Part shown: in pieces, positions 2,556 through 19,664 of the stretch
Position numbering within the stretch: position 1 is the stretch's first letter
Layout: the number at the start of each line of letters is the position of its first letter
From: a virus
IMG/VR virus record: IMGVR_UViG_3300024324_000425
Location: 1-64,000 of that record
DNA: 64,000 nucleotides
Direction: 5' to 3' (one strand)
The notes under the pieces: generated by a model
Database searches by the model: none
The model's input: only the letters and a program-made list of their open reading frames with translations
Told to the model about the DNA's origin: nothing
Translations under genes and position numbers: made by a program

Positions 2556-3290
2556 ATGATTGGAATTATTGGTTATGGAATGGTGGGAAAGGCTGTCGAA
2601 CACGGCTTTCCTAATACAACTCACATTATATCGGACCCTGCGTATAACAAGGTAAGTATAGCTGACGTTTGCAATGCAAATCCCGATGCTATCTTTGTCG
2701 CAGTACCCACGCCTGATGATAACTCAAACTACGAAATACTTAAGACAGTATTAGATGTCATATTTGACTCTGAATATACAGGATTAGTAGTTGTTAAGTC
2801 AACCATATTACCCCACCACTTAATACCATACGATGTATTATATAACCCAGAGTTCTTATCGGAAAAAACAAACCTCGAAGACTTTATTAATCCTCCAATG
2901 TTAATTATTGGCGGAGATAAAGCACAAGAATTAGCCGACATATATACTAAGTACTCTATTGTAAAAACTGATAAAGTATTCCTTACCTCTATTGAAAATG
3001 CAAGTCATATTAAATATATGATGAATACGTTTTATGCAATGAAGGTAACCTTTATGAATGAGATGTATGATGTTGTAGGTAAGGACAATTGGAAAGAAGT
3101 AACAGGGATATTAAAGCAACACCCTTGGATGGGAACACATCACTTTGATGTTCCAGGCCATGATGGTAAGAGAGGCTTTGGTGGTGCATGTTTTCCAAAG
3201 GATACTAAAGCCTTAGCAAATGAATATGATATTAAATTATTAAAGACAACGCTTGAATTAAATGAAAACTTTATTAGTCGTCCTATCTGA
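2556..3290 (+). CDS. UDP-glucose/GDP-mannose 6-dehydrogenase family, short form
   Basis: Nucleotide-sugar 6-dehydrogenases oxidise the C6 alcohol of a UDP- or GDP-sugar to a uronate using two NAD+. The sequence has an N-terminal GYGMVG Rossmann motif (residues 6-11), the family motif PEFLSE and the catalytic cysteine motif GFGGACFPKD near residue 210. At 244 residues it is well below the usual ~390-450 and lacks most of the C-terminal nucleotide-sugar-binding domain, so its substrate range is unclear or it may need a partner. Its 3' end overlaps the first radical SAM gene by 29 nt. It opens the accessory island. Confidence 0.8.
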   Translation: MIGIIGYGMVGKAVEHGFPNTTHIISDPAYNKVSIADVCNANPDAIFVAVPTPDDNSNYEILKTVLDVIFDSEYTGLVVVKSTILPHHLIPYDVLYNPEFLSEKTNLEDFINPPMLIIGGDKAQELADIYTKYSIVKTDKVFLTSIENASHIKYMMNTFYAMKVTFMNEMYDVVGKDNWKEVTGILKQHPWMGTHHFDVPGHDGKRGFGGACFPKDTKALANEYDIKLLKTTLELNENFISRPI

Positions 3291-4254
3291 ATTATGTAAC
3301 TTAGACTGCTCATATTGTGATATGGAGAAGACATCTAATAAGTCGATCGATGTTGATTTATTCTTAAAAGAGTTTGAGTTATTAAGAGAAACATATCCTG
3401 AAGAGATCATTAAAGTAGACTTCTTTGGGGGTGAGCCTCTTCTCCAATTAGACAAAGTCAAATATATTATTAATCATATCAATGATGATAATATCAAATA
3501 CTTTATGCCGACCAACGGTTTAAAGATGACTAAAAAATCCAAGCAGTATCTTCTTGATAATAATGTAGAGTTGTCATTAAGCTTTGACGGGCTATGGCAG
3601 GACCTCAATAGGAAGCAGTTAACCGGTAAAGGAACCTTACAGCATTACTTAGAAAAGAAAGACCTGTTTAAAGGCATGAAGTGCCATACAATGATTAGCA
3701 CAGGCAACTATAATTTATTAGAAAATCATCTGTTTATTCTAAATGAATTTGGTATCGTGCCAGACATGACCCTCGTTAGGGATAGAGGTATATGGGACAT
3801 AGAATCTGTAACTGCTTTGAATAAAGGAATACAAGAGTTATTCGACTGGTACAGAGAAAATCCAAGTGAACCAATGCCATTCCTAATTCTATTCTATCTT
3901 AGACATTTCTTATTATATGAAAGTAAGAAGTATGTAGTTGAATCATGCGGTGCGGGCGTAGATCTGTTCTCATTCTCTGAAGATAAGGTTGTCCCTTGTA
4001 ATAGATTTAAAGATGACTTGGTTGCCACTAACAATATAACATCATATGTACACACGAGTGCGTGTAACACATGCTCTGTAAAGAACTATTGCAAGAAGGG
4101 TTGTTTATATGAGCAGATAAAGAATGAAGGTCCAATAGTCGACATATGTACCATATATAAATATATCTATAAAGCAATAGCGATTCTCGTAAAAGACTTA
4201 CGCGACAACAAAGACTTTAAAATGATTATAATGGAAGAGTTGAATAATGAATAG
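3262..4254 (+). CDS. Radical SAM protein with C-terminal Cys-rich (SPASM-like) domain, no. 1
   Basis: A 330-residue radical SAM enzyme: the CNLDCSYC motif (Cys 12, 16, 19) binds the SAM-cleaving 4Fe-4S cluster, and GGEP at 56-59 is the SAM-binding motif. The C-terminal third has further cysteines (ESCGAG, VVPCNRF, CNTCSVKNYCKKGC) like the auxiliary-cluster SPASM domain of peptide- and sugar-modifying enzymes. The ATG lies inside the end of the dehydrogenase gene, so the two are co-transcribed. The substrate is unknown; the Cys-repeat protein at 5572 is the nearest peptide-like candidate. Confidence 0.88.
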   Translation: MKTLLVVLSELCNLDCSYCDMEKTSNKSIDVDLFLKEFELLRETYPEEIIKVDFFGGEPLLQLDKVKYIINHINDDNIKYFMPTNGLKMTKKSKQYLLDNNVELSLSFDGLWQDLNRKQLTGKGTLQHYLEKKDLFKGMKCHTMISTGNYNLLENHLFILNEFGIVPDMTLVRDRGIWDIESVTALNKGIQELFDWYRENPSEPMPFLILFYLRHFLLYESKKYVVESCGAGVDLFSFSEDKVVPCNRFKDDLVATNNITSYVHTSACNTCSVKNYCKKGCLYEQIKNEGPIVDICTIYKYIYKAIAILVKDLRDNKDFKMIIMEELNNE

Positions 4255-4465
4255 TATTGAAAATATAAATCAATCGATGTATAAGGCAAGCACTCATTTG
4301 ATTGAAGCCGCAAAGTACCTATCAGACACAGGATTCAAAGATGAAAGCATTTCTTTAATGTCTTTAGCCGATAAGCTATTAGATGTTATTGTACCTGAAC
4401 CAGAGAAGATTACTGAAGAGAAGATGAATAATATTATGGATGAGATTATAAATTATGGCAATTAA
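4247..4465 (+). CDS. Small helical hypothetical protein between radical SAM genes
   Basis: A 72-residue, mostly helical, acidic protein (MNSIENINQSMYKAS start). It overlaps the upstream radical SAM gene by 8 nt and the downstream one by 11 nt, so it is translationally linked to both. I see no catalytic motif. In modification clusters, small helical proteins in this position sometimes recognise the precursor or act as chaperones, but nothing here shows that directly. Confidence 0.6.
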   Translation: MNSIENINQSMYKASTHLIEAAKYLSDTGFKDESISLMSLADKLLDVIVPEPEKITEEKMNNIMDEIINYGN

Positions 4466-5570
4466 AAACCAGTTTACACTTGAGATAACAACTACAGCTT
4501 TATGTAACCTTGATTGCACGTATTGCTTCGAAGGATTAAAGACCGATAAACAAAAGTTAGATGAAAAGGTTGATGTACTAAAATTAAGGATTCAAGAGTT
4601 GCTTGATTCCGAATGGTTTAATGACAAATATGACGAGCTTAACTTATCATTTTGGGGTGGTGAACCTACATTAAACTTTAAACTTGTTACAGAGATTATC
4701 CAAGCATATCAAGATAATCCAAAGGTAAGTTACCATATATACACTAATGCTTATGATCGTAATAGATTAAATAAGATTATTGATAATGTCGATACATCTA
4801 ACTTGCATATTCAAGTGTCGTACGACGGCAAAGATATTAATGATGTATTCCGTGTACTTAAAACCGGTAAAACAACCTCTGATAAAGTTGTAGAGAATAT
4901 TAAATACTTAAGCGATCGAGGTATATCAACATCGATGAAAGCTACTATGCCATTAACAGCAATGGGATCTTTATATTCATCTTGGAAAGACCATGAAAGG
5001 TTATATAAAGAATTGCCTAATGTTCGTGTAGCATACGCCCCGACCATTGACTATGTATCGGATATTGATATTAATGGATTGCCAGATCTAATAGATAGCT
5101 TTAAGCATGGTATGATGAAGATTGCTAAAGAAGAGATTGAATTCCATAAAGAACACAGTCACTTCTTATGTACTTGGTTTACGGAGAACGATGCAAAGAC
5201 CCATTGCTCATCTGGTGTAAACATGCACGCTATAGACGTTGATGGTAATTCTTATGCATGTCACGGGTCATTATATTCTCCTAACAAAGATGAGATGAAA
5301 GGTGGACATATAGACGATGATAGTTTTATAAATAATATTATAAAAATGAGTGATTCTTTAAGAGAACCAATCCAAGAGGTATCAGATATATGTAATGGTT
5401 GCGTAGCAACTACATGTATGATATGTCCGGTAATTTCTCTAGATAACTCGAAGAAAGATAATTTTAACGATAAGTGGACTGATCGTTGGGTCAACAACAT
5501 GTGTGGATTCTTTAAAGCATTTGGTGAGATTGATAGATCTGTTCAGTATTATATAAACAAGAGGAATTAG
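4455..5570 (+). CDS. Radical SAM/SPASM protein no. 2
   Basis: A 371-residue radical SAM protein with CNLDCTYCFEG (Cys 17, 21, 24) and WGGEP (66-70). The C-terminal region is Cys-rich: HCSSG, ACHGS, ICNGC, TTCMICP and a final NMCGFF. This layout is typical of SPASM enzymes holding two auxiliary Fe-S clusters, which often modify ribosomally made peptides or proteins. It ends 1 nt before the gene for the Cys-repeat/S74 protein, the tightest link in the island and the main reason to suspect an enzyme-substrate pair. Confidence 0.88.
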   Translation: MAIKNQFTLEITTTALCNLDCTYCFEGLKTDKQKLDEKVDVLKLRIQELLDSEWFNDKYDELNLSFWGGEPTLNFKLVTEIIQAYQDNPKVSYHIYTNAYDRNRLNKIIDNVDTSNLHIQVSYDGKDINDVFRVLKTGKTTSDKVVENIKYLSDRGISTSMKATMPLTAMGSLYSSWKDHERLYKELPNVRVAYAPTIDYVSDIDINGLPDLIDSFKHGMMKIAKEEIEFHKEHSHFLCTWFTENDAKTHCSSGVNMHAIDVDGNSYACHGSLYSPNKDEMKGGHIDDDSFINNIIKMSDSLREPIQEVSDICNGCVATTCMICPVISLDNSKKDNFNDKWTDRWVNNMCGFFKAFGEIDRSVQYYINKRN

Positions 5571-5571
5571 T

Positions 5572-6240
5572 ATGGCCCAACCAGCAAATCATTGTTCAAA
5601 TCACGGCACCGGCACAAGCACGTGTTCTAATCATAGGTCATCATGTTCTACTAATCGAACACTATCTTTAAGTAGCGATTATGGCGTGCCTGGTCATGTC
5701 ATTAGAGCATCGGATATAGAGAACGTTAGAACTAGAATTAGAGATGAAATGTCTCGATGGAACTTACACTCAAATTACAATTATGCATTAAGATCGCCAA
5801 GCTCAATATCAAGTGGCTCATCAATCATTGATAATCACGCAGAAGACTTAGTACAAATGGTTAATGATATGAACGGCGGTGGAACATTTGGAGATCTTAA
5901 TGGTGATCTTATTGAAGATAGTCATTGGGATATTATCAGAGATCGATATAATGTAATTAGACAAAACTGTATCTGTAACTCGGATTGTGCATGTAATAAT
6001 GTTTGTGCTTGCCATAATGATTGTGCATGTAACTATTCAGATGAAAGATTGAAAAGAGATATCGAATTTATTGAAGAAAGAAATGGTCTTAACATATACA
6101 ACTTTAAATACTTATGGGATGATACTATTAAAACCGGTGTTATGGCACAAGAGATTCTTAAAAGTAAATGGAAAGATGCTGTACATCAAGATAGAAAGGG
6201 TTATTATATGGTAGACTATTCAATGCTACCTAAATTTTAA
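5572..6240 (+). CDS. Cys hexapeptide-repeat protein with C-terminal S74 chaperone-type domain
   Basis: A 222-residue protein. The N-terminus is Cys/His/Ser-rich with two CSNH motifs, and the middle (about 40-130) is an ordinary acidic region. Residues 133-153 hold four C-x-C-(N/H)-(N/S)-x units (Cys 133/135, 139/141, 145/147, 151/153). Immediately after comes SDERLKRDIEF, then GVMAQEI and VDYSML, the signature of the S74 intramolecular chaperone that ends many phage fibres and can cleave itself before the initial Ser. If it cleaves, the Cys array would become the C-terminus. It may be a modified fibre or tip protein, or a metal- or cluster-binding protein. Domain calls are by motif. Confidence 0.75.
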   Translation: MAQPANHCSNHGTGTSTCSNHRSSCSTNRTLSLSSDYGVPGHVIRASDIENVRTRIRDEMSRWNLHSNYNYALRSPSSISSGSSIIDNHAEDLVQMVNDMNGGGTFGDLNGDLIEDSHWDIIRDRYNVIRQNCICNSDCACNNVCACHNDCACNYSDERLKRDIEFIEERNGLNIYNFKYLWDDTIKTGVMAQEILKSKWKDAVHQDRKGYYMVDYSMLPKF

Positions 6241-6254
6241 AACGGAGTTATATT

Positions 6255-6860
6255 ATGATATATGAATTAGCATTAGTGATTGATAAAGGTACTTTTTGGG
6301 AAGTAACCAATGTCACAAAGAATACATTAGACAACTTAGCAAATCGAAATGAGACGATGCTCAAGTTATCTTATATAGCTTATAAACAGATCAAAGCTGG
6401 ATTAAGTGAAAATAAGATAGTACAAATCACTAAGGAAATGATGACCGATGAGGTTATGCCTGGTGAAGTACGGTATATTACTATCGGTGAAGAAGATGAT
6501 ATAGTGGATCATCGTAATGCAGCCTTGGCTAAAGTAAGAATGCTAGCAAATCCAACATTAGCTTCTATTGCCGGTTTAACTATGTACGGATTCATTGTAC
6601 TTAACAATGATTTGGTTAATGCAGGATATGCTATTACCAACGACAATAGAGAAGAGAAATACTTATCTATTTTAGAGACCGGTGATGAAGAGCTTATTAA
6701 TAAATTAGAAGATTACTTAAACTATAAAGATGAGATTGAACGTGTGGCTCAACTAGAACGCAAGTTCTCGAAGTACGTAACTGAAATAAATAATGCACCA
6801 CTTGAGGATATAGAAGGTATTCAAAATAAATTCTTAGAAGACTTCTATGCGACATATTGA
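6255..6860 (+). CDS. Hypothetical protein, accessory island
   Basis: A 201-residue soluble protein starting MIYELALVIDKGTF, predominantly helical with charged segments and no Cys clusters. A weak GGAG site precedes the ATG. Its stop overlaps the TTG start of the next gene. I do not recognise the family. Its place just after the S74 protein suggests a role in the same pathway or assembly step, without direct evidence. Confidence 0.65.
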   Translation: MIYELALVIDKGTFWEVTNVTKNTLDNLANRNETMLKLSYIAYKQIKAGLSENKIVQITKEMMTDEVMPGEVRYITIGEEDDIVDHRNAALAKVRMLANPTLASIAGLTMYGFIVLNNDLVNAGYAITNDNREEKYLSILETGDEELINKLEDYLNYKDEIERVAQLERKFSKYVTEINNAPLEDIEGIQNKFLEDFYATY

Positions 6861-7606
6861 TTGGTGTTGTCTATAAATGGCAGGTCCACAATAAACTAAA
6901 CGGATCGGTATTTTATGCATTCGAACATGCAGCATATCTAAACTGCCCTTTATACCTTGTTAATATTAATGATAAAGACTTAGCTCTTCTTAAGAGTATC
7001 TTTGACGCTAAATATAATATTCCTCTTGATATTATAACTCCTATAAGTTTAATCGATTTATATAAAATTAAACTTGATAAAACACTAATACTCGATATTA
7101 GAACTTTCACTGAGGTAAAAGAATTTCTATCTAATGATATCCATGTATTCTCAAACGAAGCACATGATATGTTCAGATATAAGAATGATCGAACAGTAAC
7201 ATACTACGGCTCATACAAATATCAGAACTATGATATATTTAACTATCTCAAATTAAACTTTAATATATTCCAAGAGTCTACTGGTGGAGAAGGTACATTC
7301 GTGTCAGGTCTAAGAGTGCCCAATTCAATGCCGAATCTTAATAAGCCATTACTTAAAAAACATGGTAGCGGGCAAGGGGATATATTTAACAAGATTGATA
7401 CTATACATTATATACATACACTACTTGATACGAACAATAGGATTATACCTGAAGCATTTTTCCACAATAAAAAAATTGTGATTGATGATCAGAACCCAAC
7501 ATTAATAGATTCAATAACATTTAGATATAATGATATAATGGAAAATGGTTTAGGTAACTATACATTAAGCAAGGAGGATAAACTTGTCAAAGCTATTACA
7601 ACTTGA
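6857..7606 (+). CDS. Hypothetical protein, possibly glycosyltransferase-related
   Basis: A 249-residue protein. The best start is TTG at 6857 overlapping the previous stop. It has alternating hydrophobic strands (IGVVYKW, LYLVNI, TLILDIR) like a Rossmann or GT-B half, and a Gly-rich motif TGGEGTFVSG. It overlaps the next gene by 23 nt. Together the two have the size of one GT-B glycosyltransferase, so a split enzyme is possible, but this is inference from fold-like patterns. Confidence 0.55.
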   Translation: MIGVVYKWQVHNKLNGSVFYAFEHAAYLNCPLYLVNINDKDLALLKSIFDAKYNIPLDIITPISLIDLYKIKLDKTLILDIRTFTEVKEFLSNDIHVFSNEAHDMFRYKNDRTVTYYGSYKYQNYDIFNYLKLNFNIFQESTGGEGTFVSGLRVPNSMPNLNKPLLKKHGSGQGDIFNKIDTIHYIHTLLDTNNRIIPEAFFHNKKIVIDDQNPTLIDSITFRYNDIMENGLGNYTLSKEDKLVKAITT

Positions 7607-8426
7607 TCCTAAGATAGACTTATGGTTGTCATATACATGGAGTAACAATGATCATGGTATTTGTGGTCATGTCTATGAGGTGATTGATTATTATATGATA
7701 CTCAAAGATCACTTCAACGTTGGTATATTATTCGCTGAGAAGTTTGAATTAGACCTATCTAAGTATGATTTTGAATTAGATGAAAGTGTTATTACGTACT
7801 GTGACAAACCTTCAGTAGTTAAAGGGACTAACATATTATTCGTTGATGGTGGTGTAAACAGTAATATGAATAAAACTCTGTTGTTTGATAATATATTCTA
7901 TTTTGCCTGTGGTAATAAAGAAGTTAAAGATAATGATAAAGATAACGTATACATATTGCAAGATGATAGGGTGTATGATCCAGTTAAAAAGAATGGTATT
8001 AACTATAAGAAAAGAATTTTGCTTGATAGACTAAATCCGGTTGTCGTACATGATGATAGACCGATGGTATATACCACCACTAACTGTAGAGAAACAGACT
8101 TAACAGGATTACCAAGTAACACATTAGTTGTATCTGATAAAGAGTATGAAGAATTCGAATGTGTTAAACCACCGGTTAAAGATATATTCGAAAAGTTTCA
8201 TACATTCATATATACACCCGTTGCGCGCAAGTGGGACTGCTCGCCAAGATTTATCGTAGAGTGCGAACACCACGGCAAAGAAGTTGAGTACCATAACATC
8301 GATTATTGGGAAGAAGATAAAGGGTTATACTGGAGAAAGTGGGATATTGATAACGATTTTGATTCGCTGTATTTAAAAGAAGATGATGAAATAATATGTA
8401 TAATCAAGCAAGTACTTTCAAATTAA
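7584..8426 (+). CDS. Putative GT-B-like glycosyltransferase
   Basis: A 280-residue protein started by TTG at 7584, chosen because a strong AAGGAGG site lies six bases upstream. The C-terminal part contains FIYTPVARKWDCSPRFIVE and then an Glu/His-rich segment, resembling the donor-binding end of GT-B glycosyltransferases, where a conserved Glu contacts the nucleotide sugar. The N-terminal half has repeated beta-alpha units. Its 3' end overlaps the next radical SAM gene by 31 nt. Acceptor and donor cannot be told. Confidence 0.5.
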   Translation: MSKLLQLDPKIDLWLSYTWSNNDHGICGHVYEVIDYYMILKDHFNVGILFAEKFELDLSKYDFELDESVITYCDKPSVVKGTNILFVDGGVNSNMNKTLLFDNIFYFACGNKEVKDNDKDNVYILQDDRVYDPVKKNGINYKKRILLDRLNPVVVHDDRPMVYTTTNCRETDLTGLPSNTLVVSDKEYEEFECVKPPVKDIFEKFHTFIYTPVARKWDCSPRFIVECEHHGKEVEYHNIDYWEEDKGLYWRKWDIDNDFDSLYLKEDDEIICIIKQVLSN

Positions 8427-9367
8427 TACCTAGAGATGCGCCTATTAATAATAGGGCTAAGTTGGACACTGGTACCCATTGCAACTATAAATGTGACTTC
8501 TGTTATTATAAGACTCAATTAGATGTAGTAACAAATTTAGATGTAATCAAAGAACGAATCGATTACTTAGTTGAATGTGGTATAACTGAAGTGGATCTTA
8601 GTGGTGGTGAATCATCTATTCATAAAGAATGGTTTGATATATTAGACTATTGTACTGATAAAGGATTGTACATATCATGTTTAAGTAATGGATTTAAGTT
8701 CGCTAAGAAGGAATTCATTCAGAAGAGCTATAACCATGGATTAAGAGAGATTCTATTCTCTGTACACGGGTATGACACCACATCTCATGACATGTTGGTG
8801 GGTCGCAAGCATGCATATAAGAATATCATTAAAGCTATTGGGAATGCACAAGAGCTTGGTATGGTTGTCCGAGTTAATTGTACAATAACAGAATCCAATT
8901 ATAAACACTTAGATGAGTTCGTTCTAATGATGAATGAGCTTAAACCATTACAAGTAAACTTTCTCCCTTTAAACTATTGGGACGATGCTAAACAACAAAG
9001 TGCATTGAACTATAAAGAGGTCTCTCCGTATATCCATAAGGCTATTGATACATTAAACATTGAAGAGATTAACGTACGGTATATTCCATTCTGTTTTATG
9101 AAGGGATATGAGAAGCATGTTGTCGGATACTTCCAACATATATATGATGTTAAAGACTGGAACATTGCAGTGTATGATCATAGTATTAATCCTGAGGAAT
9201 ATAAGAAAGATAGAGTTAAAGCGATGTTTGATGCGGCCAAAAGAAACAGAATAAATACATATATTAAAAAGAAAGAGTGCTTGCAATGTAAGTACTACTT
9301 CGTATGTGATGGTATAGAGCATGATCAAGAAGTATTTCCAGAAGATGGCGAGAAGGTGTTATTATGA
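8396..9367 (+). CDS. Radical SAM protein no. 3
   Basis: A 323-residue radical SAM enzyme with HCNYKCDFCYY (Cys 29, 33, 36) and LSGGESS (69-73) in place of canonical GGEP. The C-terminal cysteines are few (CLQCKYYFVC near the end), enough for one auxiliary cluster at most. It is tightly coupled to its neighbours (31-nt overlap upstream, 4-nt downstream). The family generates a 5'-deoxyadenosyl radical; the substrate is unknown. Confidence 0.87.
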   Translation: MYNQASTFKLIPRDAPINNRAKLDTGTHCNYKCDFCYYKTQLDVVTNLDVIKERIDYLVECGITEVDLSGGESSIHKEWFDILDYCTDKGLYISCLSNGFKFAKKEFIQKSYNHGLREILFSVHGYDTTSHDMLVGRKHAYKNIIKAIGNAQELGMVVRVNCTITESNYKHLDEFVLMMNELKPLQVNFLPLNYWDDAKQQSALNYKEVSPYIHKAIDTLNIEEINVRYIPFCFMKGYEKHVVGYFQHIYDVKDWNIAVYDHSINPEEYKKDRVKAMFDAAKRNRINTYIKKKECLQCKYYFVCDGIEHDQEVFPEDGEKVLL

Positions 9368-10371
9368 ATAACATAAAACAGGTATTGAATCCTACAGACA
9401 TTGAATCTATAGAGCTAGGTTTAATTAATAAATGTGTGTTAGACTGTAGACTATGTTTAAGACAAGAGGCTATAACAGACAATTTGGAAAAAGATGTAGC
9501 AATTGACTTAGGTACTTTATCGAAATTTATGGATCAACTGCCTAATCTCAAACAGGTAGATTTAGTAGGTTCTATATCAGAACCAACCTTGCATAAACAA
9601 TTTTATGGTATCATAAAGTATATCAAGGGACGTAACTTAAAGATTAGACTATCAACTAACGGCAATACATTTTCGTTAAATTGGTGGGCTAATCTAGGTA
9701 AGTTAATGGATGAACGTGATATAGTAAGGTTTGCTGTTGATGGATCTACACAAGAAATACATGCTAAATACAGAGTCAATGGTAAACTGTCTAAGGTGTT
9801 AGCTTGTCACACCGCGTTTAAAAGTACATCACGGAGTATTACCGTGTTACAAAATATACTATTCGCATATAATATAGATGATCAAGATAATGTGCGGGCG
9901 TTATTTATGAAAGAAAACTTTGATATATGTGAATTTACACATACAGGTGGATTTGATTTCACAGGAACACCCGCCTTGATAAAGGATAATATACTCCCGG
10001 TTAAAGACTTATTATCAAGTTATAATAAACTCACCCGAGATCATACAGTTAATATGAAATTAAACTGCGCGGCCTTTATGGGGAAGTATGTATATCTAAA
10101 TCACTTGGGTTGTGTTCTACCATGTGATGATATGGAAGAGACTACATTCATCTCGCCCAGTAATAACATAACTATATATAATAATACTATAGATGAATGC
10201 TTCGCTCATGTAAATTCCATAATATCTAAAAGGTTTTTCTGCAACACATGTTCTGAGTGTTGTGGCCAGCTCCATCATGATATACGTAAAGAATACCCAA
10301 TTATACAATATAATAGAAATGGCGATTCAGAATCTTTGTATAAATTTAGAGAAGTGATGAATATAATATGA
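9364..10371 (+). CDS. Radical SAM protein no. 4 (tandem paralogue A)
   Basis: A 335-residue radical SAM protein: CVLDCRLC (Cys 24, 28, 31). The GGEP region reads GSISEPTL. A conserved block (WWANLGKLMDERD, then FAVDGSTQEIHAKYR) is shared with the next gene, showing a tandem duplication. The C-terminal cysteines (CVLPCDD, FFCNTCSECC) could hold an auxiliary cluster. It overlaps both neighbours by 4 nt. Confidence 0.86.
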   Translation: MNNIKQVLNPTDIESIELGLINKCVLDCRLCLRQEAITDNLEKDVAIDLGTLSKFMDQLPNLKQVDLVGSISEPTLHKQFYGIIKYIKGRNLKIRLSTNGNTFSLNWWANLGKLMDERDIVRFAVDGSTQEIHAKYRVNGKLSKVLACHTAFKSTSRSITVLQNILFAYNIDDQDNVRALFMKENFDICEFTHTGGFDFTGTPALIKDNILPVKDLLSSYNKLTRDHTVNMKLNCAAFMGKYVYLNHLGCVLPCDDMEETTFISPSNNITIYNNTIDECFAHVNSIISKRFFCNTCSECCGQLHHDIRKEYPIIQYNRNGDSESLYKFREVMNII

Positions 10372-12436: not shown

Positions 12437-12873
12437 TATATTTAATATCGCGTATCGATGAGCAAGCACATTCCCATAATATTGCTATAGCTAACATAGT
12501 ATCGGAGGTGTATAATCATAAAGTGTTCGTGCCGCATTTGCATAACCCATATAATATACCCCACAATAAGATGGAATATAAGACGTTTAAAACTGACCTC
12601 ACTAAGATGAAAGAATCATCTATGGGCGTTATAGCATTGCCTGTAGGCAACGATTGTTCCGGAGAAATTGGATGGTTCGCTGGAAATAATAAAGCGGTTA
12701 TTGCTATTATCAAGAGCACCGAGTATATGTCTAGTGCTGACCAGATAGAATCACTTTCATCTATGTGGATGATAAAGGGATTTATTGATGAGGTTGTGGT
12801 ATTTAACGAACATGACCAATTGGTATTACTCAATGATCCTATACTTAAGGATAAGGTAACATTATGGTTATAG
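12433..12873 (+). CDS. Nucleoside 2-deoxyribosyltransferase-like protein
   Basis: A 146-residue protein with the layout of the deoxyribosyltransferase-like fold: MIYLISRID start, a central GVIALPVGNDCSGEIGWFAG block matching the usual D-x-GT-x-E-G region, and a following strand KAVIAII. Family members cleave or exchange N-glycosidic bonds of nucleosides or nucleotide-like sugars. In this island it might release a base or sugar used as substrate. Fold assignment is by motif and moderately sure; the reaction is not known. Confidence 0.6.
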   Translation: MIYLISRIDEQAHSHNIAIANIVSEVYNHKVFVPHLHNPYNIPHNKMEYKTFKTDLTKMKESSMGVIALPVGNDCSGEIGWFAGNNKAVIAIIKSTEYMSSADQIESLSSMWMIKGFIDEVVVFNEHDQLVLLNDPILKDKVTLWL

Positions 12874-13571
12874 AGGTCAATGAGTATTTACTAAACCGCT
12901 TAAGCGAAGTAAACGTATTAGATATAGAAATAGAGGGGGATTTGGTTGAACCCACTTACTTTTTTTATATATCATCAACTACGTATAATAAGCTTGTTGA
13001 TGAATTCTTTCCAAGTGCTGATTTATTACAAGGCTTGGTTAAAACCTATAATGGGTGCTTATTTAAAATTGAACTAAAAGACAATAAAGTTGAAATCTTA
13101 ATTGGGTTTGAATTAGGAGATCATACTTTAACTATGGTATTTGATGATGAGTATAAATTAGTTGATATTAAATTTTATACATTGGTTGAAGAAGTGGGTA
13201 TATACAAGGTATGTTATAAGATAAAGCTTTCAAGTATTAGTTCGTTATACTACAATTATGAAGTCAATGGTATATGGACGAGTTATGCACCACCTATTAG
13301 TATGTACACCGAGGTATTTTCGGCAACAAAGTATACTATAGCCGATAAATTAAGACACCTGCGTAAAGAGTATACTAAACATAAGGACGTACCAAGTGTA
13401 CACTTTGATGATGTTATGGTTATATCAAACATTAAAGATTACCAAGATGTGTTAACATATGCTGGATCAAATTTAAACATTAAGCCAACTATAAATAAAT
13501 TACTACAGCTGTTAATTATAGAGGAGTATAATGAGTTTATCAAACAACATAGCATTAATAACAACTATTGA
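12864..13571 (+). CDS. Hypothetical protein
   Basis: A 235-residue soluble, beta-rich protein (MVIEVNEYLLNRLSEV) with no recognised motif. It overlaps the previous gene by 10 nt and the next by 41 nt. A TATAAATA box and the Shine-Dalgarno of the following glycosyltransferase are embedded in its 3' end. I cannot assign a function. Confidence 0.6.
   Translation: MVIEVNEYLLNRLSEVNVLDIEIEGDLVEPTYFFYISSTTYNKLVDEFFPSADLLQGLVKTYNGCLFKIELKDNKVEILIGFELGDHTLTMVFDDEYKLVDIKFYTLVEEVGIYKVCYKIKLSSISSLYYNYEVNGIWTSYAPPISMYTEVFSATKYTIADKLRHLRKEYTKHKDVPSVHFDDVMVISNIKDYQDVLTYAGSNLNIKPTINKLLQLLIIEEYNEFIKQHSINNNY
13490..13497 (+). promoter_or_regulatory. Possible internal late promoter TATAAATA
   Basis: An exact late-promoter box 33 nt before the ATG at 13531, inside the end of the previous gene. 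The spacing to a GAGGAG ribosome site is reasonable, but AT-rich coding sequence yields chance matches, so this is tentative. Confidence 0.4.
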
Positions 13572-14412
13572 AGGTGACCTTAAGGATATCAATACCTTAA
13601 AGCAGGGATATATTAGATGTTACGAACAAGAGGCAGTTCAGTGTTTTACTGAGTGGCGAAAGAATGCTGGCTGGTTGAAAGATGTTCCTATATATTGTAT
13701 TGCGTTAACCAAGAACACGATATCACAAGAAACAAAAGATATCTTTAAAGAACTTAATGTTAATTACATTGAAAAATTCTATCCTGAAACTGAACTTTAT
13801 CAAAACGGATATTGGAATATACCACTATCTGGTAAATATTTTGAAGAAGAACTTAAAGAAGACATCTTAATTAAAATTGATTTAGACATGTATCTTATTA
13901 AAGAACTGTCTAAAGAGATGTTTAATATTGAGAGAGGCACAACAACAGTTGGTAGGTATGACCCATTGTCGGCAAAACATAATACCAATAAGTTAACGTT
14001 TCCAGAAAGATATGGTCAACCATGGGATACTGGTTTAGTGATTACACACAGGGCCACTGGTTTTTTTGGAAAGTTTTATAACAAATTAAAACAAATTACA
14101 TCTGAATTTGAAGATGGCACCTTTGAGAGTTTATACGGATTACATATTAAAGAACATGACAACGATCATGGTGTTGATTATGGTGCTATCGAAGAGTTTG
14201 CGGTGTCTATCATGTACACGGATGAAGATGCCAAATTAATTCCACAATTTAAATACAACTTAGGCGAGTTTTACGCACCGATAGACATATACACAGATGA
14301 AGAAGTTCAAGAGATATACTTCTTCCATGAACATATACCACTTCAGGAGATTGGCTATGATAAATTCAAGACACGTATTGAATACTTCCATCGCATTAAT
14401 CACGGTAATTGA
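13531..14412 (+). CDS. GT-A-type glycosyltransferase-like protein, copy A
   Basis: A 293-residue protein with a KIDLDMYL segment: the D-x-D pair at 117/119 follows a hydrophobic strand, as in GT-A enzymes that bind metal and a nucleotide sugar. Start supported by GAGGAG upstream. Similar residues recur in the next gene (IALIT-IE-DL, FTEWRKNAG versus FSHWRNNAG, KNTIS, IDLDMYL), so the two are tandem duplicates. It could decorate a virion or host surface molecule; donor and acceptor are unknown. Confidence 0.65.
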   Translation: MSLSNNIALITTIEGDLKDINTLKQGYIRCYEQEAVQCFTEWRKNAGWLKDVPIYCIALTKNTISQETKDIFKELNVNYIEKFYPETELYQNGYWNIPLSGKYFEEELKEDILIKIDLDMYLIKELSKEMFNIERGTTTVGRYDPLSAKHNTNKLTFPERYGQPWDTGLVITHRATGFFGKFYNKLKQITSEFEDGTFESLYGLHIKEHDNDHGVDYGAIEEFAVSIMYTDEDAKLIPQFKYNLGEFYAPIDIYTDEEVQEIYFFHEHIPLQEIGYDKFKTRIEYFHRINHGN

Positions 14413-15190
14413 ATCTGATCTAATTAATATAGATTCTAATAATACACATAACACTAGGCTATTTGAAAGAGAAGCTATATTGTCGTTTAGTCATTGGCGT
14501 AACAATGCTGGAATATATAAAGATATTCCCATATATGCAGTGTGTATTACAAAAAATACTATATCAAAAGATACTAAAGATAAGTTTAAAGAATTAAATG
14601 TAACTTATATTGAAAGTTATCAAGCGGTCACAGAGTCGTTTGATTGTGGGTTTTATAATAAACCACTAGGATGTAAGGTGCTTGAAGAGACCTTAACAGA
14701 AGATATATTAATTCATATAGACTTGGACATGTATTTAATGAGAGAGCCTACCATACCTTTCAAAAATGCATGCATGGTATATGATACACACCAACTACAT
14801 AAAGAACGTATACATAAAAACGGTGAGGTGATAGACACATATAACACATGTTATATGGTTACTAAACGCAAAGATAAGATATTTTCTAAGTGGTGGGATA
14901 AACTAAAACAACTTGATGAGGATTACATATTAGATCGTAGTGAGTTTGATAAACTATATGATAACCTAGAGTATAGAAAATTAGAAGAGTTGTCGTTTGA
15001 TTTATTATCATTAGACATAGAGATTTACAATATACCAAACTCTTTGTTTGGGGAGACATATACCCCATTAGCTAGTATGAATAAATTAGAATTGAATAAT
15101 ATCACCTTTCACCACTATCACATATATACATCATTAGTTGAGTACAACTGGTTTGCTGGATATAGGGAATACACAAAATGTTTTCTTTAA
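14357..15190 (+). CDS. GT-A-type glycosyltransferase-like protein, copy B
   Basis: A 277-residue paralogue of the upstream gene with IHIDLDMYLM (D-x-D at 122/124). I place the start at ATG 14357: a CAGGAG site ends seven bases before it, and the N-terminus then aligns with copy A. This gives a 56-nt overlap with copy A. An ATG at 14297 would add 20 unrelated residues. The 3' end overlaps the next radical SAM gene by 13 nt. Confidence 0.65.
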   Translation: MINSRHVLNTSIALITVIESDLINIDSNNTHNTRLFEREAILSFSHWRNNAGIYKDIPIYAVCITKNTISKDTKDKFKELNVTYIESYQAVTESFDCGFYNKPLGCKVLEETLTEDILIHIDLDMYLMREPTIPFKNACMVYDTHQLHKERIHKNGEVIDTYNTCYMVTKRKDKIFSKWWDKLKQLDEDYILDRSEFDKLYDNLEYRKLEELSFDLLSLDIEIYNIPNSLFGETYTPLASMNKLELNNITFHHYHIYTSLVEYNWFAGYREYTKCFL

Positions 15191-15942
15191 AAATCCCTAA
15201 AATGATGTGTGTGCCAATAACAGACAAGTGTCATTTGCGATGTGGGTTCTGTTATAATAGTAATGATTATTTCAAAACAGCTAAGCACATGGATATTGAT
15301 GAGTTTAAGGATATTGTTGATTGGCTCATATCAGAAGGAATATCTTATATTGATATAACCCCTGCGGTGGGAGAAGCTTTGTTAATCCCAAACCTTCATG
15401 AATTTCTGGACTATTTAGATAACTCGAGTATTGATAAGTATTTATTAATTACATCACTGGCTGTTAAAGATATATCAGTATTAAAGGATCGTCATAAAAT
15501 AGATATAGAGGTTAGTTTATATGGGGAAAACGCAGAACAATATATAAAAACCACTGGGAGGGATGTGTTTGATTTGGTCTTACCCAACATTAAAGAATTG
15601 ACTAAAGATGGTATTACTATATTAAAACGCTTTAAAGAGCCTATAACATCAACAGATCTTCGACTAATAACGAAATTCGATAATGTGAAGTTAGTTGATT
15701 ATAGTGATGATCGCGGATTAGAGTATGCATCAAAAACTGGGGAAGTACGAGAGTGTGTGTTCATGAAAGAACCTTTGGTTACTAAGCGGGGAATTAGTTT
15801 GTGTTGTAAGGATCATAAGATTGAGGACTTGGTTATTGGTCAGGTTGGTGAAAGTCTAAAAGATATATATAATAACATATCAATAGATGATGTCAAGTGT
15901 TCTATTGAATGTGATTGGTTTATAGATGCATCCACAGATTGA
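15178..15942 (+). CDS. Radical SAM protein no. 6 (short)
   Basis: A 254-residue radical SAM protein with CHLRCGFCYN (Cys 18, 22, 25). The GGEP position reads AVGEALL, an unusual variant. C-terminal cysteines (ECVFM, SLCCKDH, KCSIEC) are followed by LVIGQVGESLKDIY, reminiscent of SPASM-type ends. It is smaller than the other five. It overlaps the next gene by 17 nt. Confidence 0.83.
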   Translation: MFSLKIPKMMCVPITDKCHLRCGFCYNSNDYFKTAKHMDIDEFKDIVDWLISEGISYIDITPAVGEALLIPNLHEFLDYLDNSSIDKYLLITSLAVKDISVLKDRHKIDIEVSLYGENAEQYIKTTGRDVFDLVLPNIKELTKDGITILKRFKEPITSTDLRLITKFDNVKLVDYSDDRGLEYASKTGEVRECVFMKEPLVTKRGISLCCKDHKIEDLVIGQVGESLKDIYNNISIDDVKCSIECDWFIDASTD

Positions 15943-16384
15943 TCCAACTGAACATGATCTTATAATAAGATTCTTTGGAATTGATCCAACCTCCAATATA
16001 CTTTCTGGAAATCTTAATCTGGGAACAAGCGATTTTAGAAATATAATAGACTTCTATAGGTTTGAATATAAAGATAGAGAAGCTGCGTTTTGGGATGTTG
16101 TATATCCAAAATCGTTGTTATATCCTAATATAGAAATACCTATTACAATGACACGTGTGGCATTAGATTGGGTTGATTATGTTACAAAGGTTGATGTATC
16201 ATATACTATTGATGATAATAAACTTATAATGAATACCTCCCCACAAGGTGATCGGTATAATAAAATGTTACAACTGATATGTTGTATGATATTTGTATCA
16301 GATTTTAATAATATGAGTGATGATAAAAAATATATAGACACGAGTGCGGCTTGGCTGATTATAATGAAGATAGCAAATGAATAA
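15926..16384 (+). CDS. Hypothetical protein
   Basis: A 152-residue protein (MHPQIDPTEHDLIIRFFG) with no motif I recognise; its C-terminal half is hydrophobic-helical with two adjacent cysteines. It overlaps radical SAM no. 6 upstream and the aminotransferase-like gene downstream, so it is co-expressed with both. Confidence 0.6.
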   Translation: MHPQIDPTEHDLIIRFFGIDPTSNILSGNLNLGTSDFRNIIDFYRFEYKDREAAFWDVVYPKSLLYPNIEIPITMTRVALDWVDYVTKVDVSYTIDDNKLIMNTSPQGDRYNKMLQLICCMIFVSDFNNMSDDKKYIDTSAAWLIIMKIANE

Positions 16385-16982
16385 CCATGAATTTATAAAG
16401 ATGTTTGAGGATGAGTTGAGTACCTACACCGGTGCACCTTATGTAGTCCTTACAGACTCATGTACTAATGCGGTGTTCTTAATGTTAAAGTATCTAGATA
16501 TACAAACCACTATTAGTATTCCAAATCATACGTACATCTCTATCCCCCAACAGATTATACATGCTGGAGGTTGCGTCGAGTGGAATACTGAAGAATGGAT
16601 AGGTTCTTATAATTTAAAGAATACTCCTATCTGGGATAGTGCTGTCGGGTTCCATAAAGATATGTACATTAAAGATCAATTCATGTGTTTATCATTTCAA
16701 CAAAAGAAAGCATTACCCATTGGAAAAGGAGGAGCTATTCTATTATCCAAAAAAGAAGATTATGAAATTCTTAAACGAATGGCATGGGATGGAAGAGACG
16801 CTTCTGTATCTGTTGAAAGGGATATAAATAATATTATACTAGGATATCATATGAACATGACCCCTAATGATGCGGTTAATGGATTATTACTACTTAATCA
16901 ATTTACCGCGGTAAAGGATAATCAGGGATGTTGGTTAGACTACCCTAACTTAGACGTAACAAAAGTAAATGGAGAAACATAA
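16377..16982 (+). CDS. Short DegT/DnrJ/EryC1/StrS-type aminotransferase-like protein
   Basis: PLP-dependent sugar aminotransferases of this family add an amine to keto-sugar nucleotides. Present here are TDSCTNAVFLML (the cofactor phosphate-binding region), IPNHTYIS and SFQQKKALPIGKGGAILL, the segment that carries the Schiff-base lysine (Lys 110 or 111). The product is only 201 residues against about 370, missing the C-terminal half, and the usual His before the lysine is absent. It may be a degenerate or single-domain relative; activity is uncertain. Confidence 0.7.
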   Translation: MNNHEFIKMFEDELSTYTGAPYVVLTDSCTNAVFLMLKYLDIQTTISIPNHTYISIPQQIIHAGGCVEWNTEEWIGSYNLKNTPIWDSAVGFHKDMYIKDQFMCLSFQQKKALPIGKGGAILLSKKEDYEILKRMAWDGRDASVSVERDINNIILGYHMNMTPNDAVNGLLLLNQFTAVKDNQGCWLDYPNLDVTKVNGET

Positions 16983-17648
16983 ATGGATAAAAATCCAAAT
17001 CGAACGTGTTGTGATGATGGCAAGTGCTATCGCCATGATGTAATTAATAAGCTGGAGAGTGAATTTAATATTATTGAAGCACTTGATGAACTAGAATGGG
17101 GATATACTCACACGTTTGTATTCATCGAAGATAAGCTATACTATTACAAACCTGAACTTATATCACAAATCGCGGCGGATGCTGCTATATGGGATGAGTC
17201 TTATACAGGAGACTTTAAAGCTTCGGTTGATGAGATATCATCATTGTTAAATCAAGAAGTAATATTGACTGATGTTTATAGTAAATTAGATGAGTATATT
17301 AGAAGTGGTATTAACGGGATGCCAACATTCATTGAAGAGACTGAGAGTTTCTTAGTATTTGCGGATCCGAAGGCTGAGGTGATGCCTGTTGATGAGTGGA
17401 AAAATAATCTATTGAATATTAAAAATAGTTTCAGTGATGATATTAATCCATTGTTAGAAGTGTTTGGTGATAATGAGCTTTATATAAAGGGTAACCAAGT
17501 ATATTGCTATGATATACTAGCCTTTGAAAATAACACTAATGGTAAGTTAGGAGTATTTAGTGAGGCTGATGATAAAATAGTGTTTAGTGCATTTGGCGAG
17601 TTAGATCCAACACAAGCTAAAGTCGTGGATCTGCTTAAAGAGTTATAA
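16983..17648 (+). CDS. Hypothetical protein with Cys-rich N-terminus
   Basis: A 221-residue acidic protein. The first 20 residues contain TCCDDGKCYRH, a compact Cys/His cluster that could bind metal or be a modification site; the rest is an ordinary acidic helical/beta protein with no known motif. A GGAGAAA site precedes the ATG. It lies between the aminotransferase-like and epimerase genes. I cannot assign a function. Confidence 0.6.
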   Translation: MDKNPNRTCCDDGKCYRHDVINKLESEFNIIEALDELEWGYTHTFVFIEDKLYYYKPELISQIAADAAIWDESYTGDFKASVDEISSLLNQEVILTDVYSKLDEYIRSGINGMPTFIEETESFLVFADPKAEVMPVDEWKNNLLNIKNSFSDDINPLLEVFGDNELYIKGNQVYCYDILAFENNTNGKLGVFSEADDKIVFSAFGELDPTQAKVVDLLKEL

Positions 17649-18533
17649 ATGAATATATTATTATTAGGCGGTGCCGGTTTTATTGGTACCCATTTAGCCA
17701 AACGGTTAAAAGGTGAAGGACATAACATAACAATCATTGATTCGTTGAGCACATCAGTATCTCCGGATTATGGTGTTAACTTTATTAAAGGCGATGTGGC
17801 TACAATGGATTTAGATATCCAATTAATGGAAGCTGACTTAGTATATTACTTGGCAGGATCTGTTGGAGTAGAATACATTGATAAGAATCCATCAAGCACT
17901 CTATTCAATAACATTGACTTAATGACTAAGTTAATCCCTGCCTTTGAAAGAGCACAAACAAAAGTAATATTCTCATCCACTTCTGAAGTATATGGTGAAG
18001 GACCTTTCAACGAAGACAACGCATTAAGTATTGGTTCCCCTAATAAATTAAGATGGGGTTATGCTTGTGCTAAGTTAATGACTGAGTTCATGATAAAGGC
18101 TTCTACATTCCCATCGGTTATTGTAAGATTCTTTAATGTAGTGGGACCTGGTCAATCCGCTGATTATGGTATGGTCCTACCTAGAATGGTAGCGGCGGCA
18201 AAGACCGGACAAAACTTAATTATATATGGCGATGGCAAACAAGTTAGATCATTCTGTCACATCAAAGATGCTATTGATGCTCTTATATTATTACAAGATG
18301 CTGAGGGTATATACAATGTTGGTAATGATACCCCCTCAACAATGAATGAGTTAGCAACGGCTGTATTAAGAGAAATAGCCACAACATCTAATATGAAGTA
18401 TCGACCTTATGAGAAAGATTTCTCTAAAGAACATGGTGATATATACTATAGGGTACCTGATATTACTAAGCTTAAAGAGCTCGGGTATGAACCTAAATAT
18501 GATTTGAAAGATATTATAAGAGATATGTTATGA
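17649..18533 (+). CDS. NAD-dependent sugar epimerase/dehydratase
   Basis: A 294-residue extended short-chain dehydrogenase. GGAGFIGTHLA (residues 7-17) binds NAD; SSTSEVYGEG and the catalytic Tyr-x-x-x-Lys (Tyr 138, Lys 142 in WGYACAK) follow, then RFFNVVGPGQ, all typical of UDP-glucose 4-epimerase or dTDP/GDP-sugar dehydratase relatives. Length is only slightly short. It probably interconverts a nucleotide sugar used by the island's transferases. It overlaps the next gene by 4 nt. Confidence 0.85.
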   Translation: MNILLLGGAGFIGTHLAKRLKGEGHNITIIDSLSTSVSPDYGVNFIKGDVATMDLDIQLMEADLVYYLAGSVGVEYIDKNPSSTLFNNIDLMTKLIPAFERAQTKVIFSSTSEVYGEGPFNEDNALSIGSPNKLRWGYACAKLMTEFMIKASTFPSVIVRFFNVVGPGQSADYGMVLPRMVAAAKTGQNLIIYGDGKQVRSFCHIKDAIDALILLQDAEGIYNVGNDTPSTMNELATAVLREIATTSNMKYRPYEKDFSKEHGDIYYRVPDITKLKELGYEPKYDLKDIIRDML

Positions 18534-19177
18534 AGATAGTTTTTATATTTGCTCATCCAGATGATGAAGCGTATGGACCTGCTGGTACTATACACAAGTT
18601 AGCTAACGCTGGCCATAGTGTATCGGTGGTTGTTATGTGTAAAGGTAATAGGCCTGGTGCTGAAGAAGTATGTGATGATAGAATGGAAGCCTTTAAAAAG
18701 AGTTGTAGTTCATTAGGGGCTACAGGAACTATGTTCTTAAACAACGATTGTAAGTTAAAGTATGGAGAAACTCTTAAACAAATAGAAGGAGTTATTAACG
18801 ATCTTCAACCAGAAGTAGTGTATACTCATAATATATCTGACATTCATAAAGATCATAGGTTAGTTGCAGAGTGTGTAATAGTAGCTACTAGGCCGAAGCC
18901 TGAGTCATCTATTAAAGAATTATATATGTGCGAGATCCCAGCATCTACTGATTGGGCATTTGGTCAATTAGGTGAGGCATTCCAACCTAATGTTTATAAA
19001 GATGTATCAATGGAAATATATAAGAAGCAACAGGTGATGGGATATTATGCAACAGAAGTATATGAATATCCAGATGCTAGATCAATTGAAAGTATGGAAA
19101 CTTTAGCGATGTATAGAGGTAAGACTGTTGGCATGCATAGAGCTGAAGCGTTTAAGCAGGTATATCGACTCGACTAG
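18530..19177 (+). CDS. LmbE/PIG-L family zinc deacetylase
   Basis: A 215-residue N-acetylglucosaminyl deacetylase-like protein. The AHPDDEAYGPAG motif near the N-terminus and HNISDIHKDHR further on supply the zinc ligands and catalytic Asp. The family removes N-acetyl groups from sugar conjugates. With the epimerase, aminotransferase-like and amidinotransferase-like genes it could prepare a free amine on a sugar. Its 3' end overlaps the convergent minus-strand deacetylase by 26 nt. Confidence 0.82.
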   Translation: MKIVFIFAHPDDEAYGPAGTIHKLANAGHSVSVVVMCKGNRPGAEEVCDDRMEAFKKSCSSLGATGTMFLNNDCKLKYGETLKQIEGVINDLQPEVVYTHNISDIHKDHRLVAECVIVATRPKPESSIKELYMCEIPASTDWAFGQLGEAFQPNVYKDVSMEIYKKQQVMGYYATEVYEYPDARSIESMETLAMYRGKTVGMHRAEAFKQVYRLD

Positions 19178-19664
19178 ATCCATAGAAGTCAGTGAAACCA
19201 TAAGGCTTTAAAAGACCTGCATATAAACCATCTAGTTCTTCGTTGTAAGGAAAACAAAATGATGTTGGTATATAATCTAATTCTTTCTTAAACCACGCTA
19301 GCATAAGTTCTGTATCTTCTTTGATATGTTTAACCTTATCAACTAACTTAGGGATTTTAGATACATCTTTATGATAATGGGAATGGCCACCTATCTCTAT
19401 ACCCATATTGATTATCTCTTTGATTTGATCAATAGTCATATAGTTTTCAGTATTACCTTTAAACGCCTTTACATGAGCACTACGACAATCAATAAACTCT
19501 TCTGATTGTTTACCCCTACATATTATATTAGACGAGATAAAGAATATCTTATCATTAGGTAAGTCTTTACCGTATAGATACTGAGAGTATAGACCATCAT
19601 CAAAGGTACACAATCCCTTTGGTATATTAGTGTCTTCTTTCATTTCGTGTATCATTAATACCAT
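19152..19664 (-). CDS. Polysaccharide deacetylase (NodB-like), the only clear minus-strand gene
   Basis: A 170-residue protein with CTFDDGLYSQYL (the metal-binding Asp pair) and GGHSHYHKDV (metal-binding His residues), the core motifs of NodB-homology carbohydrate deacetylases. It is shorter than a typical NodB domain and lacks a signal peptide, so it should act in the cytoplasm on a sugar or conjugate. It is convergent with the LmbE-type gene. Upstream on the minus strand lie a TATAAT at 19701-19706 and a GGTAGG stretch, a plausible separate promoter. Its reversed orientation suggests later acquisition. Confidence 0.78.
   Translation of the reverse strand: MVLMIHEMKEDTNIPKGLCTFDDGLYSQYLYGKDLPNDKIFFISSNIICRGKQSEEFIDCRSAHVKAFKGNTENYMTIDQIKEIINMGIEIGGHSHYHKDVSKIPKLVDKVKHIKEDTELMLAWFKKELDYIPTSFCFPYNEELDGLYAGLLKPYGFTDFYGSSRVDIPA

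Follow-up and report, generated by a model that had tools for sequence, protein, structure and literature searches.

Background

The described systems closest to the one reported here are two enzyme-substrate pairs, PapB/PapA (freyrasin) and CteB/SCIFF (a ranthipeptide), in both of which a radical S-adenosylmethionine (SAM) enzyme with a seven-cysteine SPASM domain adjoins a Cys-repeat substrate, a short leader-core peptide. PapB makes Cys-Asp/Glu thioethers and tolerates differing spacings (PMC9413430), and the radical SAM/SPASM enzyme QhpD carries out similar thioether chemistry inside a functional protein, in quinohemoprotein amine dehydrogenase, rather than on a secreted peptide (PMC5682303). 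In phages, 11-12 radical SAM genes were reported in 2010 for the Campylobacter phages CP220/CPt10 (Firehammervirus), and were left without a function (PMC2853527). We have analyzed 64,000 nucleotides of viral DNA (positions 1 to 64,000 of IMG/VR record IMGVR_UViG_3300024324_000425; hereafter, the window), in which an island at 2556-19664 groups six radical SAM genes around a gene for a protein with a Cys-repeat tail and an S74 domain.

This locus resembles the PapB and CteB systems, which also provide the best family and PDB matches of its enzymes at 3262 and 4455, but it is phage-borne, it has two SPASM enzymes, neither of them with a fused RRE (RiPP recognition element, RiPP standing for ribosomally synthesized and post-translationally modified peptide), and its presumed substrate is a 222-residue fibre-like protein with a Cys tail near the C-terminus and no CX3D. 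From QhpD it differs in substrate, repeat and gene neighbourhood, and in belonging to a phage instead of to host metabolism. We consider it probable that the island constitutes a RiPP-like maturation pathway for this one phage protein.

Conservation of the enzyme and Cys-tail genes

The initial annotation of the island had envisaged a phage pathway that modifies a virion protein or produces a decoration, and had suggested looking for the same gene order in other phages. That order is conserved, the opposite of what unrelated single acquisitions would give, and its persistence in many divergent contigs strongly supports a pathway acting on the Cys-repeat/S74 protein; the virion status of this protein is, in turn, suggested by its S74 domain, its tail-fibre neighbourhood and its fibre-like repeats. 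Starting from two aligned rows of the Cys-tail protein, relatives were located in 11 viral contigs, most of which share the order UDP-glucose dehydrogenase, rS3262, a small gene, rS4455, Cys-tail/S74 gene, g6255, g6857, g7584, (an rS15178-like gene) and rS8396, followed by variable further radical SAM genes (genes are named by their first position in the window, rS denoting radical SAM). Scanning with an alignment of rS4455 yielded 53 loci, including CP220, CPt10 and CP21, the two-row (A1) and 12-row (A4) alignments succeeding where a single-sequence 4455 search of the viral contigs returned no match. Much of the core order is kept in about 35 distinct contigs, the 4455 relatives among them reaching as low as 30-40% identity. 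The Cys-tail protein is encoded by the next gene downstream of rS4455 in 27 of the 31 dereplicated loci and lies at most 2.4 kb from it in all 31. As a control, 12 of 696 other genes of those loci pass the same rule, seven of these 12 being either that Cys-tail gene or a second one.

The tails fall into two types, a hexad (CxCNxx)n (type 1) and a heptad (CTCDCNY)n (type 2), with Asn and Tyr conserved in each heptad. Tail type switches twice on the maximum-likelihood rS4455 tree, as compared to 3-8 times in 1000 shuffles, and the occurrence of only two changes argues that enzyme and tail have been co-inherited. CP220 belongs to the type-2 clade, beside locus L164 (support 95/91).

The tailoring part of the island differs between loci. 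One viral contig (L214) has an order near that of the window, with two copies of rS9364 followed by rS10368, amidinotransferase, GT13531, DegT, short-chain dehydrogenase/reductase (SDR), PIG-L and deacetylase genes. A 52-kb contig from a Bdellovibrionales metagenome-assembled genome (L135, MEQL01000015.1) holds the core set and an S74-less Cys-tail protein ending in CNYG; it is possibly from a phage and might hint at the host. A gut contig with a SCIFF-like peptide and a CteB-like enzyme (L141) was set aside as probably bacterial.

The Cys tail and its S74 domain

As initially annotated, the product of 5572-6240 combines a Cys repeat and an S74 domain. It comprises an N-terminal Cys motif (CSNH..CSTNR), fibre-like repeats, a tail with eight Cys (CxCxxxCxCxxxCxCxxxCxC, residues 133-153) and S74 (PF13884, 25.7 bits against a cut-off of 22). 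The 23-residue tail, CICNSDCACNNVCACHNDCACNY, is of the (CxCNxx)4 type and is directly followed by SDERLK, so that its end coincides with the start of S74 at residue 156, precisely at the Ser-Lys dyad. In S74/ICA domains, self-cleavage relies on an equivalent Ser-Lys dyad (S578 and K583 in MYRF, spacing +5), together with an essential Gly and an essential residue right behind the Ser, and the freed N-terminal fragment stops immediately before the Ser (PMC3742443). The window protein has the equivalent residues S156, D157, K161 and G189, thus maintaining the +5 spacing, the essential Asp/Asn and the Gly, and shares with endosialidase-type domains the SDxRLK dyad and the GVMAQE motif containing the essential Gly. 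On these grounds, a cut between Y155 and S156 is predicted; it would leave an unmodified mature product of about 16.96 kDa, or 17.09 kDa if the initiator Met is retained.

In contrast to described S74/ICA domains, the window-type S74 stands directly behind a Cys tail, and it is split or missing in other loci. It has been lost at several separate places on the enzyme tree, and the S74-less relatives end in CNYA, CNYTA, CNYTQ, CNYS, CNYG, CNYSGTK or CNYL, with a few other short endings, their C-termini lying mostly within a few residues of the tail/S74 boundary; hence, the Cys tail is the probable end of the mature protein, and removal of S74, be it genetic or proteolytic, would leave this tail as the C-terminus. 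Six loci divide S74 between two genes. The first stops after a SDxRLKxxIxY-type sequence (SDERLKRNIRSI in L159), thereby holding the Ser-Lys dyad, and the second half is a separate open reading frame (ORF) with its own start, just downstream of the Cys-tail gene (Table 1). Sequencing frameshifts were rejected as an explanation, given that the break point is the same in all six loci and that the second halves have their own start codons, that the L169 second half is in frame after the stop, and that all six match S74 from profile position 15-20.

The PHROG matches of S74 are virion and tail fibre families, and we regard a location of the Cys-tail protein on the virion as fairly probable. A PDB profile search with the Cys-tail family gave no significant match. 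BLAST of the protein against phages returned S74 relatives only, perhaps an effect of low-complexity filters that mask the repeats. Searching the viral contigs for a plain CxC-repeat DNA pattern produced low-complexity noise.

The radical SAM enzymes

Across the six reading frames of the window, open stretches above 60 residues contain CxxxCxxC at six places and no others, with one copy apiece in the genes at 3262, 4455, 8396, 9364, 10368 and 15178. Since the motif occurs in those six genes alone, the cluster is not a product of chance. All six are plus-strand ORFs starting where the initial annotation had placed them, and the family searches concur: PF04055 is above the Pfam cut-off in five, and 9364 is assigned to the superfamily through radical SAM families of NCBIfam and PHROG. 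The extra Cys clusters that had been likened to SPASM domains hold for 3262 and 4455, the families of which show seven invariant SPASM Cys (9/9 and 12/12 rows, respectively), whereas 8396 retains four conserved Cys in its C-terminal half and no more. PapB is the top NCBIfam match of rS3262 (84.9 bits) and of rS4455 (92.5 bits), with QhpD second for the latter (75.4 bits). The top match of both in a PDB sequence search is 5wgg (9.6e-22 for rS3262, 2.2e-20 for rS4455), an entry named 'Radical SAM domain protein' that we take to be CteB, the SCIFF thioether enzyme. The nearest matches of both SPASM enzymes are thus thioether maturases (PapB, QhpD, 5wgg), which supports modification of the tail. 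From its sequence and context, rS4455 is probably the maturase of the Cys tail, and the small s4247 gene possibly encodes an accessory or recognition subunit. Three tandem short CxxxCxxC ORFs (190-211 residues) without a SPASM region are found at L001:15451-17260, and similar short ORFs appear in other loci.

The Cys tail might, alternatively, be an unmodified tip that binds metal or Fe-S clusters (metallothionein-like) or is rich in disulfides, with the radical SAM enzymes acting elsewhere. The dense CxC spacing and very high Cys content of the tails are indeed reminiscent of metallothioneins, but this explanation accounts neither for the almost constant adjacency of a SPASM peptide-maturase-like enzyme nor for the Asn and Tyr of every heptad, and a host protein of 150-300 residues is unlike a metallothionein. 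We therefore deem it unlikely.

A proposed maturation pathway

In the maturation pathway that we favour, the product of 5572-6240 would be a trimeric fibre-like protein, the last 23 residues of which before S74 form the (CxCNxx)4 tail. The enzymes encoded at 3262 and 4455 would modify this tail, perhaps guided by the small partners encoded at 4247 and 6255, most likely by introducing Cys-S to carbon thioether cross-links. S74 would trimerize the protein and cut itself off between Tyr155 and Ser156, turning the modified tail into a free C-terminus. The products of g6857 and g7584, together with rS8396, may add or vary a decoration, probably sugar-based, in which the exchangeable radical SAM, amidinotransferase, aminotransferase, epimerase and deacetylase genes could take part, and the finished product would probably reside on the virion. 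That the two SPASM enzymes act on the tail appears likely; that they do so through thioether cross-links is put forward more cautiously, at somewhat below even chances.

Several observations weigh against this pathway. Both enzymes miss the PapB equivalog cut-off (340 bits) by a wide margin, and neither carries a fused RRE, since CxxxCxxC starts at residue 12 or 17 and leaves no space for one at the N-terminus. The tail has no CX3D motifs of the PapA kind, and there is no short precursor peptide in the system: instead of a leader-core peptide, the relatives are proteins of 150-300 residues with fibre-like repeats and a Cys tail that is C-terminal or precedes S74. Without fused RRE or short precursor, this is not a textbook RiPP system. 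Furthermore, the agreement between tail type and enzyme tree could reflect mere neighbours as well as partners, the glycosyltransferase fold matches presented below are weak, and the Cys-repeat protein is not among the identified bands of the published CP220 virion gel.

The presence of the same gene set in dozens of other phages suggests that phages probably rely on radical chemistry to complete one component of their own virions. To our knowledge, no phage is known to modify its own structural protein by radical SAM chemistry, and a search of open-licence papers likewise located no such case; nor did that literature contain the enzyme-substrate reading, the S74 boundary or the split S74. With some reservation, as a scenario that we rate below evens, we extend the proposal to a pathway that is widespread among phages. 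In it, the Cys tail at the tip of a trimeric fibre would be cross-linked by radical SAM/SPASM enzymes and glycosylated by partner enzymes, and S74, acting in cis or, as a split two-gene chaperone, in trans, would expose the finished tail; the radical SAM genes of Campylobacter phages would thereby be explained as well. If so, these genes, unexplained since 2010, would acquire one function, a class of naturally cross-linked protein tips, the enzyme-substrate pairs of which are defined, would be added together with a split self-cleaving chaperone, and RiPP-type chemistry would be seen to serve the construction of a virus particle. The proposal also brings the targets of the many phage radical SAM genes within direct experimental reach.

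Glycosyltransferase-like genes

The AlphaFold2 model of g7584 (pLDDT 90.6), built like the other structure predictions from alignments of the fetched loci with the CP220 row left out, has top PDB fold matches that are nearly all GT-B enzymes, though weak ones (best E 0.015, TM at most 0.51), so that g7584 is a putative GT-B-like glycosyltransferase. PDB profile searches with the g6857 and g7584 families found no significant match, and neither profile search nor Foldseek found a fold match for g6255. The putative glycosyltransferases at 13531 and 14297, proposed initially, are upheld by homology to CP220 gp088 and gp089 (annotated as nucleotide-diphospho-sugar transferase fold). Whether the glycosyltransferase-like proteins act on the Cys-tail protein we regard as evenly balanced.

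The wealth of sugar-related genes (UDP-glucose dehydrogenase, DegT, SDR, PIG-L, polysaccharide deacetylase and glycosyltransferase-like), along with the lack of any clear NCBIfam pointer to peptide maturases for rS8396, rS9364, rS10368 and rS15178, could also mean that sugars are the main targets of the radical SAM enzymes, the outcome being a nucleotide sugar or glycan of unusual kind that decorates the virion or host surface, with the Cys-tail protein as glycan carrier or simple neighbour. Yet rS3262 and rS4455 are nearest to peptide and protein thioether enzymes, and rS4455 stays with the Cys-tail gene even at loci devoid of sugar genes (e.g. L161, L175 and L179). As a full account this seems quite unlikely, but it could well apply to the variable part of the island, side by side with the maturation pathway.

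Campylobacter and other phages

The gene set overlaps the known, unexplained set of Campylobacter phages, CP220 and CPt10 having nearly all of it in dispersed form. The initial remark that no described phage system with this set was known must thus be corrected, even if the 2010 report on CP220 and CPt10 did not link it to a Cys-repeat protein: a 21-bp repeat was noted in CPT_0180 with no connection to the radical SAM genes (PMC2853527). CP220 encodes homologues of g6255, UDP-glucose dehydrogenase, rS3262, g7584, rS8396, the SDR-PIG-L-deacetylase group and rS4455, dispersed over about 150 kb, and a colinear module (rS9364-...-rS10368-amidinotransferase-rS15178-GT-GT-g15926). Its gp086, annotated as a possible glycine amidinotransferase (pentein superfamily), is 57% identical to the window protein, in line with the initial designation of the latter. 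CP220 gp140 (CPT_0180; 534 residues) carries (CDCNYCT)n and ends about 2.2 kb upstream of gp136, the rS4455 homologue; in contrast to the window protein, it has no S74 domain and carries the repeat internally. At the thresholds used, homologues of g6255, g7584 and rS8396 are confined, in a set of 50,697 phage records, to Campylobacter phages (15 records, with some duplicates).

Timms et al. described an exchangeable module with an amidinotransferase, the central module being swapped between CP220 and CPt10 (PMC2853527), and proposed metabolic cargo that improves the infected cell, with no relation to the virion. The swap and the variable end part of the island concur with this notion, but the core is not exchangeable, keeping its order and partners down to 30-40% identity, and it centres on a protein with a phage-fibre S74 domain. 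For the window island we thus find this proposal improbable.

CP220 has two more small proteins with 27 Cys each (123 and 141 residues; L136:24206-24577 and L138:38106-38531). The Erwinia phage phiEaH2 (L139:6099-6892) and the Cronobacter phage CR5 (L140:6142-6947) present two tandem ORFs with 20-21 Cys each, nearly all in C-terminal repeats; absent from the annotation or called differently, these adjoin virion structural genes, and two radical SAM genes lie about 1-2 kb downstream.

The island and its surroundings

The window belongs to a 79,560-base viral record and is a fragment of a T4-like myovirus, with PHROG matches for terminase, tail sheath, portal, major head protein and DNA polymerase. 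Tail-fibre-related genes (438-1622, PHROGs) precede the island, as tail-fibre-like proteins do in relatives, and a phoH-like gene, named from sequence alone, lies at 19766 on its other side. The island genes (Table 1) are co-directional up to the convergent last one and, as initially described, mostly overlap by a few bases; the short DegT-like enzyme noted at that stage is recovered by PF01041.

Table 1. Genes and domains of the island (window positions) and second halves of split S74 domains (locus positions)
Feature	Position	Strand	Basis or remark
UDP-glucose/GDP-mannose dehydrogenase	2556..3290	+	PF00984, PF03721; opens conserved block in most close relatives
rS3262, radical SAM/SPASM, PapB/CteB-like	3262..4254	+	PF04055; NCBIfam PapB; PDB 5wgg
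s4247, small Cys-free protein	4247..4465	+	Close relatives have it at the same place (rS3262/rS4455 interval), 28-54% identity
rS4455, radical SAM/SPASM, PapB/CteB/QhpD-like	4455..5570	+	PF04055; NCBIfam; 5wgg; Cys-tail gene nearby in 31/31 loci
Cys-tail/S74 protein, proposed substrate	5572..6240	+	Cys repeat; Pfam S74
Cys tail CICNSDCACNNVCACHNDCACNY, residues 133-155	5968..6036	+	Near-invariant among relatives
S74 (endosialidase-type) chaperone/self-cleavage domain, S156/K161 dyad	6037..6240	+	PF13884 from residue 156
g6255, conserved, after Cys-tail gene	6255..6860	+	Hits in 36 loci; Campylobacter phage homologue
g6857, conserved; glycosyltransferase-like by eye	6857..7606	+	No database match
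g7584, putative GT-B-like glycosyltransferase	7584..8426	+	AlphaFold2 model; weak PDB fold matches
rS8396, radical SAM, closes conserved core	8396..9367	+	PF04055 9.4e-18; 49% identity to CP220 gp163
rS9364, radical SAM, variable tailoring part	9364..10371	+	PHROG 21308 5e-84; CP220 homologues
rS10368, radical SAM, variable tailoring part	10368..11354	+	PF04055; 50% identity to CP220 gp084
Amidinotransferase-like (pentein) protein	11339..12436	+	57% identity to CP220 gp086
Nucleoside 2-deoxyribosyltransferase-like protein, weak	12433..12873	+	PF05014, below cut-off
Protein with no family match above cut-off	12864..13571	+	Family profile search
Putative glycosyltransferase	13531..14412	+	Homology to CP220 gp088
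Putative glycosyltransferase, paralogue of 13531	14297..15190	+	Homology to CP220 gp089
rS15178, radical SAM	15178..15942	+	PF04055; homology to CP220 gp087
g15926, conserved protein	15926..16384	+	Homology to CP220 gp090
Short DegT-like aminotransferase	16377..16982	+	PF01041 4.7e-15
Protein with no family match above cut-off	16983..17648	+	Family profile search
NAD-dependent sugar epimerase/dehydratase (SDR)	17649..18533	+	PF01370 3.3e-45
PIG-L family deacetylase	18530..19177	+	PF02585 7e-21
Polysaccharide deacetylase-like, convergent island end	19152..19664	-	PF01522 1.9e-05; SDR-PIG-L-deacetylase together in CP220 too
Second half of split S74, L157	9717-9977
Second half of split S74, L159	11787-12062
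Second half of split S74, L164	11829-12104
Second half of split S74, L169	11741-12052
Second half of split S74, L172	11717-11998
Second half of split S74, L174	9700-9954

Elsewhere in the window, at 55780-58141, a phage alpha-glucosyltransferase-like gene (PHROG 2888) adjoins a DNA-methyltransferase-like gene (PHROG 116), a pairing that suggests DNA modification.

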